Part shown: positions 16,254-22,933 of the stretch, piece by piece
How positions within the stretch are numbered: the stretch's first letter is position 1
How the letters are laid out: each line of letters starts with the position of its first letter
Assembly: GCA_010672825.2 (NCBI GenBank)
Contig: JAAHFU020000001.1
Location: 2,480,001 to 2,544,000 of the forward strand
Origin: Leptolyngbya sp. SIO1E4
GTDB taxonomy: Bacteria > Cyanobacteriota > Cyanobacteriia > Phormidesmidales > Phormidesmidaceae
Length of the DNA stretch: 64,000 bases
Direction: 5' to 3'
Translations under genes and position numbers: made by a program
Notes under the pieces: model-generated
The model's input: only the letters and a program-made list of their open reading frames with translations
Database searches by the model: none
Told to the model about the DNA's origin: nothing

Positions 16254-16874
16254 CTAAACTTTTGGCTGGGCAGCCTTGGCTTTCCGTTCGCTGTGGCGGT
16301 CTGTGAGGTCGTCTACTTTGTCCCGCAGCAGTAGCGTAAAGCGATACAGTTCTTCCATGACGTCGATCACGCGATCACGGTAGGCTGAGTCTTGCATTCT
16401 GCCATCTTCATGGAATTCTTGATAAGCCTTCGCCACAGAAGACTGGTTGGGGATCGTAAACATCCGCATCCAGCGCCCTAAAAGCCGTAGAGTATTGACC
16501 GCATTAAAGGACTGTGACCCGCCGGAGACTTGCATCACGGCTAAGGTTTTTCCTTGGGTGGGGCGTATCGCTCCAATGTTGAGAGGAATCCAATCAATTT
16601 GAGTTTTCATCAGGCCTGAAATGTTGCCATGCAGTTCTGGGCTAGACCACACCTGACCCTCTGACCATTGAGAAAGTGCTCGCAGTTCCTGCACTTTAGG
16701 GTGGGTCTCGGGTTCGGCACCATGCAGGGGTAAGCCACGAGGGTCAAAGAACTTCACCTCAGCGCCAAAGTCCTGGATGATGCGAGCGGCTTCCTCGGCC
16801 AAAAGACGACTGTAAGAGCGCTCCCGCAGGGAACCGTAGAGAAAGAGAATCCTGGGTTTGTGGTCAAAACTCAT
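16254..16874 (-). CDS. arsH: ArsH, NADPH-dependent FMN reductase / organoarsenical oxidase
   Basis: Flavoprotein that oxidises trivalent methyl- or aromatic arsenicals to less toxic pentavalent forms; it can also reduce metals and quinones. From the ATG at 16874 there are 206 residues. The flavodoxin-like FMN loop [14 protein letters not shown] sits at the N-terminus, [20 protein letters not shown] in the middle, and [17 protein letters not shown] marks the ArsH subgroup. It is the last gene of arsR-arsI-arsH, 75 bases after arsI. Confidence 0.92.
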
Positions 16875-16949: not shown

Positions 16950-17363
16950 CTAAGCACAGCAGGTGTTTTGGGTTTGTTCAGGGGCAGTGTCGGCAACTTT
17001 GACGACAAAAATTTCCCAGCGGTTGCCGTTGGGGTCAGTGACCCAGACTTTGTCCTGCAGGGCGTAGCAGCAGTCGGTGTCGTGTTCTTCGAAGGTCGCG
17101 AGCCCAGCTGCTTTAAAGCGGGCGATCGCAGCCTGAACGGCTTCAGAGCTATCGACCTGAATCCCCAGATGAGAGAGGGTTCCGAGGGATGACACGTCTG
17201 GACTGACGTTTAGCGTCAGGTTAAGCCCCGGATTTTCAAGATCAAATTTGGCATAGTCGGCTTTATGCTTCACGGGCTCCGCCCCAAGCATGGCCCGATA
17301 AAAAGCAATAGATCGATCCAAATCGGTTACGCGTAAGGCTACGTGGGTTTTAAAGGCTGTCAT
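16950..17363 (-). CDS. arsI: ArsI C-As lyase (VOC fold)
   Basis: Non-heme iron dioxygenase of the vicinal-oxygen-chelate fold that removes methyl groups from methylarsenite and splits aromatic arsenicals. The 137-residue protein shows metal-site candidates His7, His65 and Glu117 and the vicinal Cys98-Cys99 in DTDCCYAL that bind trivalent arsenic in characterised ArsI enzymes. A second Cys-Cys pair ends the protein (NTCCA). AAGGAG precedes the ATG by seven bases. CadI-like relatives exist, but the neighbouring arsH and arsR favour ArsI. Confidence 0.92.
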   Translation of the reverse strand: MTAFKTHVALRVTDLDRSIAFYRAMLGAEPVKHKADYAKFDLENPGLNLTLNVSPDVSSLGTLSHLGIQVDSSEAVQAAIARFKAAGLATFEEHDTDCCYALQDKVWVTDPNGNRWEIFVVKVADTAPEQTQNTCCA

Positions 17364-17377
17364 TGGTTACTCCTTTA

Positions 17378-17401
17378 GTATTTCTGCAAGTATCGAAATA
17401 C
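17378..17401. promoter_or_regulatory. ArsR-type operator upstream of arsI
   Basis: Inverted arms GTATTTC (17378-17384) and GAAATAC (17395-17401) separated by ten bases. The arm core TATTTC/GAAATA and the spacing are the same as in the palindrome over the arsR start, so the same repressor probably binds both. It lies 15 bases upstream of the arsI start and allows arsI-arsH to be controlled separately from arsR. Confidence 0.75.
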
Positions 17402-17426
17402 ACGGCAAAAATTTTTATGGGTTGAA

Positions 17427-17825
17427 TTACTCGTTTAGGTTGCGGAAGTCACAACAAGCAGGCTTGCTAGAGGCTTCCATATCGACTCTGGTCACCCCCT
17501 CTAGATCAATCACTTTATTCCGGGTGCAACACTCCTCAAATAAAAAGTCGATCAAAGATTTCAACGTTTCAGACTGGGCGCTATACCAGATCCACTGGCG
17601 ATCTTTCTGCGCTGTGACAATGCCTACCTGACGCAGCTTGTCTAGGTGATGAGATAGGGTGGCGGCAGCGATGCCTAACTCTTTCTGAATCTCTCCTGCG
17701 GGTAGCCCGTGGGGATAGGCGGACAACAGAAGCCGCACAATTTTTAACCGCGAAGGCTGGCCTAGCGCTGCAAAGGCGGCGGCGATGTCGTCAATGGATT
17801 GCTGAGATAGACTGCTTATTTCCAT
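17427..17825 (-). CDS. arsR: ArsR-family arsenic-responsive repressor
   Basis: Winged-helix repressor that leaves DNA when trivalent arsenic binds. From the ATG at 17825 it has 132 residues. The recognition helix region is AAATLSHHLDKLRQVGIV (about 53-70). Metal-site candidates are two vicinal pairs, Cys99-Cys100 (FEECCTR) and Cys124-Cys125 (PACCDF), near the C-terminus rather than in the DNA-binding helix; this is closer to the AfArsR type than the E. coli type. The frame runs on to 17933, but the extension is unconserved and would bury the operator in coding sequence. Confidence 0.9.
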   Translation of the reverse strand: MEISSLSQQSIDDIAAAFAALGQPSRLKIVRLLLSAYPHGLPAGEIQKELGIAAATLSHHLDKLRQVGIVTAQKDRQWIWYSAQSETLKSLIDFLFEECCTRNKVIDLEGVTRVDMEASSKPACCDFRNLNE

Positions 17826-17860
17826 ATTTCGATAATCATCGAAATATCTGGTTTTGTCAA
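17824..17860 (-). promoter_or_regulatory. arsR promoter with overlapping operator; predicted leaderless start
   Basis: On the minus strand TTGACA (17855-17860), a 17-base spacer and GATTAT (17832-17837) form a strong promoter. The -10 ends six bases before the arsR ATG (17823-17825), so transcription should begin at or next to the A of the start codon. A perfect palindrome with arms ATATTTCGAT and ATCGAAATAT (17824-17847, four-base centre) covers the -10 and the start codon, ideal for autorepression. Confidence 0.78.
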
Positions 17861-18065: not shown

Positions 18066-19202
18066 CTAAGCGACCCGCTGCCCCTGGCACACGACTGAGG
18101 TTAACCGGGGGACGACGCCGTCATGGTGCACGGTAATAAAATCAGCCCGTTTGCCAATTTCTAGGCTGCCGCGATCGCTCGCCAGGCTGATGGCTCGAGC
18201 TGGGTTCAGGGTAAAGAGTCGCATCGCTTCATAGAGAGGTTTTTGTTGCCGCTGAGCGATTATAAACAGAGCCTGCACCAGGCTTTGGGGGACGTAGTCA
18301 GACGAGATGATGTCCACGAGATCCTGTGCTATCAGCTCCATGGCTGAGACATTGCCAGAATGGGACTTGCCTAGGATTAAATTGGGTGCCCCCATGAGCA
18401 CCTGCATGCCGTGGCTATGGGCCTCTTTGGCTGCATCTAGAGTGGTTGGGAACTCAGCAATTTTCGCCCCATCTAGCAGAGATTCCTGTACATGGTCTGG
18501 CGTCGCGTCATCGTGGCTAGCAAGGCAAATGTTATGGTCACGGGCCAGTGCTACCAGTTGGCGGCGGTTCTCTGCTGCGTGGCGCTGCTGAGCGGCGATG
18601 CGATCGCCAATAAACCCTTCCATGTCTTCAGCCCGCACCCCATGTTTGCTCTGGTAGTAATCCTTATATGTCTTTATTTGAGCGAACTGCCGCTGGCCAG
18701 GGGTGTGATCCATTAAAGAGATGAGAGACAGTAGGGGATGGGTCGCATACGGGGCTGCAACTTCATGTACTTGGTCGTACCCCAGCTCACAGCGTAGGTG
18801 CAGGCGATGGTCGACCGAAAAGCGACCGTCCATCTGCCCTTGATGCAAAGTCTCGATCATGGGACCAAATTCGGTCATGCGCATAGAAGTGGGCGTAACA
18901 TCGCCAATGGCGATCGCATCACAAACAGTGGTGATGCCTGCTGCGGCCAAGTCGCGATCGTGGTGAACAGCAGCAACCTCCAAGGGCCACTGCACGTTGG
19001 GGCGAGGTGACATGCGCTGCTCTAGGTTATCAGTATGCAGTTCTACTAATCCTGGCATCAGGTAATCCCCAGCGCCATTGTGACCTTGAGAGACCACGCC
19101 TGGCTGAATATCTGCGATTATTCCGTCCCGGACAACCAGAGTGCCTAGAATCTCGGAGTCAAGGAGCTGTAGGCGATAGTGGGTGTAAACATGTTCAGTC
19201 AT
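18066..19202 (-). CDS. phnM: Alpha-D-ribose 1-methylphosphonate 5-triphosphate diphosphatase PhnM
   Basis: Amidohydrolase-fold enzyme that removes pyrophosphate from ribose-1-phosphonate triphosphate in the C-P lyase pathway. The 378-residue protein has the metal-site signatures VELHTDNLEQ, AVHHDRD, LASHDDATPDHV and SSDYVPQSLV, and the family segments TTVCDAIAIGDV and GAPNLILGKSHSGNVSA. It is divergent from phnCDE with a 363-base gap. No other catalytic phn gene is visible. Confidence 0.96.
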   Translation of the reverse strand: MTEHVYTHYRLQLLDSEILGTLVVRDGIIADIQPGVVSQGHNGAGDYLMPGLVELHTDNLEQRMSPRPNVQWPLEVAAVHHDRDLAAAGITTVCDAIAIGDVTPTSMRMTEFGPMIETLHQGQMDGRFSVDHRLHLRCELGYDQVHEVAAPYATHPLLSLISLMDHTPGQRQFAQIKTYKDYYQSKHGVRAEDMEGFIGDRIAAQQRHAAENRRQLVALARDHNICLASHDDATPDHVQESLLDGAKIAEFPTTLDAAKEAHSHGMQVLMGAPNLILGKSHSGNVSAMELIAQDLVDIISSDYVPQSLVQALFIIAQRQQKPLYEAMRLFTLNPARAISLASDRGSLEIGKRADFITVHHDGVVPRLTSVVCQGQRVA

Positions 19203-19565
19203 GTGAGGCTACGCAGAGATGATAGGGCGCAAACGTTGAATCTATAAAGATGTAACAACACCTAACTGTGACAGAAAATAGGTATAGATGTCTAGACTCA
19301 TTTGAGATGATTTTCACCAGCAGGATCTGTGCTCTGCTTCTGTGCTCGGCTATGGAGCCTGGACTCATCGCTGAGGCTTGAAGGCGATCGCTAAGGCGAC
19401 TCCTGAGGTGTAAGCGTTGCGGTTGAATAACCGATGACCCAGCTTAACCAACCCTTAGACTAAAGCAGGGGTATTCCTGGGAGAATGTCGCTGGAAAAGG
19501 TTTCTGGTCACAACCTCTAGGGATGATTAACCGCTAGTCGCCGCGCTAGATCGTAGGATTGCCTG
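19203..19565. other. Divergent phnM-phnC intergenic region
   Basis: Gap of 363 bases that must hold the promoters of both phosphonate units. It contains a HIP1-like GGCGATCGC at 19383 and the possible Pho box listed separately. No open frame of note and no further strong hairpin were seen. Confidence 0.6.
19443..19461 (+). promoter_or_regulatory. Possible Pho box (two 8-base repeats) upstream of phnC
   Basis: CTTAACCA and CTTAGACT lie 11 bases apart in phase, separated by ACC. The cyanobacterial Pho box is a tandem array of 8-base PyTTAAPyPy(T/A) units with three-base gaps. The first unit fits fully, the second in part, and a third is not evident. It lies 105 bases before phnC. Confidence 0.35.
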
Positions 19566-21330
<1,765 letters not shown>

Positions 21331-21356
21331 ACCTTTGTCAGCAGATCCTTGTCAAG

Positions 21357-22196
21357 ATGCAGGGCAAAAACTCTAAGCATGTAACGATGGTCATAACCCC
21401 CGAAAATAGCGACAGTATTCTGCGTCAATATCGGCGGAGATGGTATCGGCAGCTTGTCCGGGTTTTACTGTTGGGTGGGGTGATTTTTAGCAGCTTTGTG
21501 GGGGTAGAGCTGTTAGATGCAGAGCGGATGACGGCGGGGATTCCGGCGATTATCAGCCTGGTTGGTGAGATGCTGCCACCGGATTTCAGCCGCTTTCCTG
21601 AATGGATAGTTCCCATTGTCGATACCCTGGCGATGAGCGTGGCGGGTACGGCGATCTCCGTTATCCTGTCACTCCCTCTGTGCCTTCTCGCAGCCAGAAA
21701 CACGACCCCTCATCCCGTGTGCTTCCATGGTGCCCGTGTCCTTTTGAATGTGACACGCGCGATTCCTGAACTAATTTTAGGGATGATTTTGGTGGCCGCT
21801 GTCGGGTTTGGCAAGTTGCCAGGGACGTTAGCACTGGGCATCCATTCTGTTGGCATGATGGGCAAATTTTTTGCTGAAGCCATTGAACTGAGTGATCAGG
21901 CCCCGGTGGAGGCGGCGCGGTCAGTGGGGGCGACTGAACCTCAGGTTATTGTCCATAGTATTTTTCCTCAGGTTTTGCCCCAGATGGCCGATGTCACTTT
22001 TTATCGTTGGGAATATAACTTTCGTGCCTCCATGGTGTTGGGGGCTGTAGGGGCAGGGGGCATTGGCCTAGAAATTATCAGCGCGCTGCGGATTTTGCAG
22101 TATCAACAGGTGTCAGCATTGTTGATTGTCGTTTTAGGAATGGTGACGATTGTTGATAGCTTGAGTAGCTATCTGCGAAAGGGGTTTGTACAGTGA
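21357..22196 (+). CDS. phnE: Phosphonate ABC transporter permease PhnE
   Basis: Inner-membrane permease of the importer. It is 279 residues from the ATG at 21357 (269 from 21387; neither has a strong ribosome site). Hydrophobic segments include LLLGGVIFSSFVGVELL, VAGTAISVILSLPLCLLA and LLIVVLGMVTIVDS. The coupling loop that contacts PhnC is VEAARSVGATEPQV. Only one permease is present, whereas many cyanobacterial phn operons carry two. It converges on phnF with 17 bases between the stops. Confidence 0.94.
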   Translation: MQGKNSKHVTMVITPENSDSILRQYRRRWYRQLVRVLLLGGVIFSSFVGVELLDAERMTAGIPAIISLVGEMLPPDFSRFPEWIVPIVDTLAMSVAGTAISVILSLPLCLLAARNTTPHPVCFHGARVLLNVTRAIPELILGMILVAAVGFGKLPGTLALGIHSVGMMGKFFAEAIELSDQAPVEAARSVGATEPQVIVHSIFPQVLPQMADVTFYRWEYNFRASMVLGAVGAGGIGLEIISALRILQYQQVSALLIVVLGMVTIVDSLSSYLRKGFVQ

Positions 22197-22213
22197 GGTG
22201 TGCCGTGCCCAGC

Positions 22214-22933
22214 TTAGGCCTCATTTTCAATCACCAGTTCCATACGATCGCTGCGGAATCGGGTCACGCCATATTCAATGACGGCACCCTGCTGATCGAC
22301 ATTGATTGCCTCTGACAGCAGGATCGGGCTGGTGGCTGGCATTTTCAGGAGACGGGCGTCTCTAGGGCGGGCCGTGCGGGCAGATATGCGTGTCTGCCGA
22401 CGAATGTGATCACATCCATACTCGTTCTGCAGCATTTGAGAAATCGAGCGATAGTTTTGACAGTGAGTGGCTAATTCTGGAAAGCGCTGACTTGGAAAAT
22501 AGCTGCTGGCGACGCTGATCGGAATGTCATCGACCAAACTGAGCCGTTCAAACAATAGCGCTGGTTCCCCGATCGCACTGTCGAGAGACTGGGAAAGCTG
22601 GGCATCGGCCTTGAGGTCAACAATCCGCAGCACCTGCCGTTGGGGCTTGAGGGACTGAGCTTTTAGGGCTTCGTTAAAGCGAACGCGTTTGCCAATTGGG
22701 ACGGCGATAGGGGTTGCCATAACAAAGGTCCCTCGACCTCTCTCAACGCCGACAATCCCTTCTTGCCGCAAGACTTCCATGGCTCGTCGGAGCGTATGGC
22801 GGTTAACGCCGAAGCGTGCACTCAGTTCGGTTTCTGTGGGCAGGCGATCGCCAATCTTAAAAACGGCCTCGGCAATATTTTGGCGTAATTCACTGGCGAT
22901 TTGAATATAAAGTGGCAGGGTTTCTTGCCGCAT
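22214..22933 (-). CDS. phnF: PhnF, GntR/UTRA-family phosphonate regulator
   Basis: 239-residue repressor. The N-terminal GntR winged helix (ELRQNIAEAVFKIGDRLPTE, LSARFGVNRHTLRRAMEVL) is joined to a C-terminal UTRA ligand-binding domain with ISVASSYFPSQRFPEL and SEAINVDQQGAVIEYGVTRF. The HutC/PhnF subfamily and its position at the tail of phnCDE support control of this locus; the effector is unknown. It is transcribed opposite to phnCDE, so it probably has its own promoter in 22934-23158. Confidence 0.9.
   Translation of the reverse strand: MRQETLPLYIQIASELRQNIAEAVFKIGDRLPTETELSARFGVNRHTLRRAMEVLRQEGIVGVERGRGTFVMATPIAVPIGKRVRFNEALKAQSLKPQRQVLRIVDLKADAQLSQSLDSAIGEPALLFERLSLVDDIPISVASSYFPSQRFPELATHCQNYRSISQMLQNEYGCDHIRRQTRISARTARPRDARLLKMPATSPILLSEAINVDQQGAVIEYGVTRFRSDRMELVIENEA

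Follow-up and report, generated by a model that had tools for sequence, protein, structure and literature searches.

The arsenic-resistance operon of Leptolyngbya sp. SIO1E4 raises the question of how a repressor gene is transcribed, translated and controlled when only six bases separate its promoter from the ATG and a palindrome lies across the start codon. We analyzed this locus within a stretch of 64,000 nucleotides (hereafter, the window), in which the operon and the control elements of its first gene are arranged as follows:

17427–17825, minus strand: arsR, encoding a 132-aa ArsR/SmtB repressor with the cysteine pair C99-C100 (NF033788, E 3.4e-20)
16950–17363, minus strand: arsI, ArsI/CadI family, C-As lyase (NF041414, E 3.8e-51)
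16254–16874, minus strand: arsH, ArsH family arsenical resistance protein (TIGR02690, E 1.8e-114; profile read from 16868, start at the ATG at 16874)
17855–17860, minus strand: −35 hexamer TTGACA of arsR, present in this register with at most one mismatch to TTGACA in 31 of 36 loci
17832–17837, minus strand: −10 hexamer GATTAT of arsR, with A-11 in 33 and T-7 in all 36 operator-anchored loci
17825, minus strand: predicted transcription start on the A of the arsR ATG, from canonical −35/−10 numbering with this A as +1
17824–17847, minus strand: operator 1, a perfect 10+4+10 palindrome conserved in orthologs, taking in the −10, the predicted start and the first two letters of the arsR start codon

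The product of arsR belongs to the ArsR/SmtB family by two profiles, NF033788 (71.6 bits, cut-off 55) and PF01022 (38.5 bits, cut-off 22). Read 5′ to 3′ on the minus strand, its promoter consists of TTGACA (17860–17855), a 17-nt spacer, GATTAT (17837–17832) and CGAAAT (17831–17826), followed directly by the ATG (17825–17823), just as an earlier sequence-only reading of this DNA had described it. The −10 hexamer starts at position −12 from the ATG and no Shine-Dalgarno (SD) sequence precedes the gene; leaderless genes in bacteria are reported to be marked by a −10 element some 12 nt ahead of the start codon (PMC3160421). The same reading placed a perfect 10+10 palindrome over the −10 and the ATG. 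The half-sites ATATTTCGAT and ATCGAAATAT, 4 nt apart, indeed form a perfect inverted repeat that covers the −10 and the first two letters of the start codon, the G lying outside it.

Within the window, the promoter motif alone is near chance (2 matches against 1.2 expected in a scan of 1.3 kb). The combination of promoter motif, spacing and ATG is rare: a single match to the complete pattern TTGAC[AG]-17-NATNAT-6-ATG exists in the window, and 20 simulated windows gave no match. Perfect 10+10 inverted repeats give 9 nested hits in the window, which fall into 4 distinct places, compared with 0–3 hits in 10 simulated windows. As the window by itself offers a promoter signal close to chance and more than one such palindrome, we turned to orthologs to judge the finding. 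Across the 8.22 Mb genome, TATTTC-N10-GAAATA is present at 2 places, both in the ars operon, and the reversed control pattern at 1; a looser operator pattern adds one more site, with a mismatch and on another contig, against 1 control hit. When the promoter motif and operator were searched for together with up to two mismatches, they were found once in each of 25 out of 136 genomes, always beside an arsR ortholog, and the reversed control yielded 0 hits, although this search missed 8 of the 33 genomes having a close arsR ortholog.

For the comparison, ArsR relatives were collected from 37 of 143 genomes at E ≤ 1e-20, comprising the window's own gene, 32 close orthologs (69–80% identity) and 4 distant ones (45–49%). 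A scan of named genomes, including Leptolyngbya, Nodosilinea, Halomicronema and Microseira, gave 30 loci. Merging both surveys resulted in 36 distinct arsR loci, the window's own included, once L001 and L002, which coincide with the window's locus L003, and the 24 of 30 named loci that repeated surveyed ones had been left out. Among the 33 close-ortholog genomes, 30 gave loci in the genome survey, and G060, G051 and G005 entered as L052, L057 and L062, respectively. Three locus pairs have upstream sequence in common, leaving 33 groups among the 36 loci. For L057, the anchor was set manually on its TTGACA.

Anchored on the operator motif, the loci display a −35-like hexamer at −35 in 32 cases and at −36 in 3, with none clear in L006; these counts include the variants TTGATA, TTGCAT and TAAACA, accepted post hoc after the sequences had been inspected, and the strict count (at most one mismatch) is the 31 of 36 given above. 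A pyrimidine at −1 and A at +1 are invariant (36/36) and the ATG is kept in 35 of 36, all being letter counts biased by the anchoring, as the anchor motif itself contains the −10 and the ATG. In L011, ATA replaces the conserved ATG and the next in-frame ATG lies 18 nt downstream, so that a short leader may have been gained there.

Since operator-anchored counts lean toward the motif, we repeated the distance test with ATGs defined by the reading frame alone. In 29 of the 36 loci, TTGAC[AG] then starts precisely 35 nt upstream of an in-frame ATG (28 if the choice is limited to the ATG closest to the conserved core), the other distances being 41 nt (three times), 36 nt (twice), 17 nt (twice) and 53 nt (once). 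The N-terminus of ArsR relative to the conserved core varies from 4 codons shorter to 10 longer (range 14) at a constant promoter–ATG distance, which ties the start codon to the promoter rather than to the protein. Pairwise identity among the loci is 25.5% for positions −95 to −36 compared with 67% for −35 to −1: the conserved block runs from about −36 to the arsR ATG, and sequences farther upstream are no more alike than random. An SD core is absent before arsR in all 36 loci (−18 to −4), in line with the earlier remark that no ribosome site is visible, and precedes the second gene in 30 of 32 (−20 to −4). Because many cyanobacterial genes are reported to lack both SD sequences and leaderless signals (PMC3160421), the absence of an SD is by itself weak evidence, and the contrast within the operon is worth more.

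Alternatively, a promoter farther upstream could give arsR a conventional leader, or translation could begin at an earlier codon in the same frame, in which case the motif at the ATG would be no more than an operator. In the window, the arsR frame does continue upstream without a stop, and start codons in that frame are found at −66, −105 (ATG) and −108; no in-frame stop occurs within 60 nt upstream in 24 of the 36 loci, and 9 have a further upstream in-frame ATG. Yet conservation beyond −36 is slight, 17 of the 36 loci offer no other in-frame start before a stop, and the SD core is missing throughout. As to a leader, TTGACA is not needed by the operator and is nevertheless held at −35, whereas it is absent from the same register of the second operator described below. 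We regard this alternative as very unlikely. A leaderless arsR message, with its predicted 5′ end on the ATG, is the best reading and, for this step taken alone, very probable. The earlier proposal of a leaderless arsR with an autoregulatory operator on its start codon is accordingly strengthened by the promoter–ATG distance kept in 29 of 36 orthologs, the lack of an SD and the conserved block ending at the ATG. A palindrome is present in the promoter of arsR itself and conserved in orthologs, and ArsR is predicted to bind it.

That proposal had located the switch at the arsR start codon, which stands; it did not include a second operator (17400–17379), which we found before arsI:

17379–17400, minus strand: operator 2 (promoterless), TATTTCGATACTTGCAGAAATA, in the arsR–arsI intergenic region, with the same half-sites as operator 1
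17370–17376, minus strand: Shine-Dalgarno sequence AAAGGAG of arsI; an SD core precedes 30 of the 32 second genes

At a threshold score of at least 19 out of 30, operator 2 is present in 34 of the 36 loci, with scores of 22–29, whereas 720 shuffled regions scored 20 at the highest; the two misses, L030 and L055, score at most 16. The distance between the operators is 446 bp in the window and 399–590 bp across loci. Searched for with up to three mismatches, the operator 2 consensus occurs at 27 places in 25 of the 63 genomes of the order, against 2 reversed-control hits; two of these places are in G057 and G062, for which no ortholog is listed, and the window's own site was not reached. Most relatives keep both operators, and for that reason the compact arsR switch looks real rather than accidental on this sequence comparison. 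Leptolyngbya sp. PCC 7375 (L043, same locus as L022) is a cultured strain among the relatives with the module. The second gene, where nameable, is arsI or a PF03773 (ArsP_1) permease; two of the permeases were assigned by profile and the rest of the identities by eye, and for the two permeases tested no NCBIfam model matched above its cut-off. In L012 (Vasconcelosia, 332–1453; L036 is the same locus), a PstS-family phosphate-binding gene begins 4 nt after operator 2, replacing arsI or the permease. Adjoining the ars operon in the window, at 18066–22933, are phosphonate genes: phnM (minus strand), phnC, a PhnD-like binding protein and phnE (plus strand), and a phnF regulator (minus strand).

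What could a second copy of the site do 446 bp into the operon? It might cover a second promoter driving arsI alone. Its placement, 14–18 nt before the ATG of the second gene in 25 of 32 loci, and a conserved T-rich stretch with TTG on its left would suit such a promoter. The same criteria applied to both operators point the other way: a 9-of-12 promoter match is found at operator 1 in 27 of 36 loci and near operator 2 in 2 of 34, the in-register −35 hexamer in 31 of 36 and 0 of 34, A at −11 in 33 of 36 and 6 of 34, and A at −8 in 29 of 36 and 5 of 34, respectively. Operator 2 conserves T-10 and T-9 no less than operator 1 does, and these letters hence belong to the operator; given the overlap between operator and −10, part of the −10 conservation at operator 1 could likewise be operator conservation. 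We consider a second promoter unlikely and, for sigma-70 promoters with a −35, the class that these counts (2/34 vs 27/36) cover, rejected it. The T-rich left flank of operator 2 (17401–17415; TTTTTGnCCTT, with TTG and CCTT) is conserved in many orthologs, and none of promoter, hairpin or operator symmetry explains it.

Operator 2 might instead act as an RNA hairpin masking the SD of the second gene, as TATTTC with GAAATA and CCTT with AAGG are able to pair, and 6 of 34 stretches fold with z ≤ −2. In-register partners pair in 87.9% of cells compared with 40–57% when slid, a difference that any palindrome would give. Against a hairpin, z lies above −2 in the other 28 of 34 stretches, and the 29 of 34 operator 2 sequences compared (L011, L031, L052, L056 and L057 were left out) pair and covary slightly less than shuffled ones do on average. 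Furthermore, the same motif in operator 1 would fall outside the predicted transcript. With covariation absent and most stretches lacking such a fold, we rejected the hairpin as highly improbable. Two copies of one site 446 bp apart also invite the idea that ArsR bound to both forms a DNA loop. The distances of 399–590 bp show no helical phasing across the loci (Rayleigh p about 0.29), on which ground a loop was rejected, and we know of no tetramerization of ArsR, a further point against it; of the explanations weighed here, we give looping the least credence.

A repressor site that lies within a transcription unit, downstream of the start and without a promoter of its own, is what roadblocking requires, and this is the situation at operator 2 as far as sigma-70-type promoters are concerned, with ArsR predicted to bind. 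We therefore favor, with moderate confidence, reading operator 2 as a roadblock operator on the basis of its sequence context, although its position 14–18 nt before the ATG of the second gene could reflect another role. A leaderless autoregulated repressor and an ArsR operator are known kinds of element; the conserved promoterless second operator is the new part and the more interesting one. Among the titles and abstract openings listed in our literature searches, none reported this cyanobacterial module or a natural, conserved second ArsR operator.

We propose that a single sigma-70-type promoter would start transcription on, or 1–2 bases from, the A of the arsR ATG, and that the resulting leaderless arsR message would continue through arsI and arsH. 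An ArsR dimer at operator 1 would cover the −10 and the start point and so shut the promoter, while a second dimer at operator 2, 446 bp downstream and without a visible promoter to repress, would most likely be a roadblock to escaped polymerases. Leak transcription would then provide some ArsR and little arsI or arsH. Both operators would be released by trivalent arsenic, most probably methylarsenite bound at C99-C100, and arsI would then be translated from its own SD. As a whole, this mechanism (leaderless arsR, repression at operator 1, roadblock at operator 2, release by arsenic) appears probable from the comparative data. Whether it amounts to a naturally evolved two-checkpoint switch, in which a leaderless, self-repressed arsR with an operator on its start codon is combined with a conserved promoterless operator that stops leak before the effectors, we rate as an even chance. 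If it does, production of the sensor would continue while the effectors stay off, and evolution would have arrived at the arrangement that was built artificially into E. coli arsenic sensors.

The nature of the inducer is suggested by the protein. C99-C100 align with the vicinal cysteines of the ArsR in PDB 6j05, the best solved relative, which we take to be AfArsR, a type 2 ArsR; the third arsenite ligand of AfArsR is absent here at the aligned position. All 35 readable loci retain the cysteine pair and none has a Cys at the third AfArsR ligand position (+7), L055 having been left out of this count for its broken arsR frame. This combination, found in 35 of 35, is that of SpArsR of Shewanella putrefaciens, an AfArsR-like protein with the pair and without the third cysteine, which is reported to respond to methylarsenite and not to arsenite (PMC11868830). 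It differs from SpArsR in the additional tail cysteines of most orthologs, and its response to methylarsenite is a prediction. ArsH, ArsP and ArsI are described as handling methylarsenite (PMC5258700). Gene content and the two-cysteine site thus suggest, as a lead only, methylarsenite rather than arsenite as the inducer. Nostoc ArsR is reported to respond to arsenite and methylarsenite alike (PMC5258700), which, together with the tail cysteines of most orthologs, makes the inducer uncertain. The operon nevertheless offers a candidate methylarsenite-responsive promoter from photosynthetic bacteria for use in sensors.

Parts of this arrangement have counterparts elsewhere. The arsR message of Cupriavidus metallidurans CH34, an unrelated bacterium, is listed as leaderless by transcription-start mapping (PMC7563307); that of the present arsR is predicted from sequence. 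CvkR (Alr3614), a repressor of Anabaena, likewise has a leaderless message, its corrected start being the mapped transcription start (PMC9938897). Both are cyanobacterial repressors, arsR being the predicted case, but CvkR belongs to the MerR family and regulates a CRISPR-associated transposon. Reported leaderless messages are few in cyanobacteria, with 51 cited for Synechocystis (PMC9938897) and 19 for Synechococcus UTEX 2973 (PMC6091082); the loci studied here would provide a comparative case, not a single sequence, for a leaderless regulator in this group. The closest parallel to the two-operator layout is man-made. In engineered E. coli arsenic sensors, too, a feedback promoter is followed by arsR and, ahead of the output gene, by another ArsR site; this engineered site downstream of arsR is reported to lower background (PMC3918153), and PMC10310618 cites E. 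coli ArsR as acting by roadblocking. Those constructs use E. coli or R773 ArsR, whereas the cyanobacterial layout is natural and conserved. Pairing a promoter-bearing with a promoterless site of one regulator in the same operon, it constitutes a natural test of roadblock repression by ArsR.

The layout of promoter and operator at the ATG occurs outside the ortholog group but is not universal. Two of the four distant cyanobacterial ArsR genes (proteins of about 42–50% identity) have it (L075 and L076, both with a 16-nt spacer and 6 nt to the ATG), and L073 is not counted among them. L074 carries two tandem operator-like palindromes between TTGACA and the ATG, and a leader is likely there. The gene at L076 (same place as L085) encodes a type 2-like ArsR and has a different perfect palindrome, ATATTTCCAA/TTGGAAATAT, over its ATG; its relatives sit on proteobacterial plasmids, and among 291 genomes of the class, genes of this type were found only in L076's own genome. 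We also inspected 10 plasmid-borne proteobacterial ArsR genes, chosen from 30 of 357 records. The layout was detected in two, L086 (Methylocystis) by the test and L087 (Comamonas) by eye. In L091, a promoter match lies 6 nt from the start but the ATG lacks an inverted repeat; in L090, an inverted repeat extends to the ATG but a promoter match is missing; and the remaining 6 of the 10 did not show the layout. L087 was missed by the test because of its weak −35; in this plasmid-borne arsR-arsH pair, far outside cyanobacteria, an operator much like operator 1 ends on the ATG.
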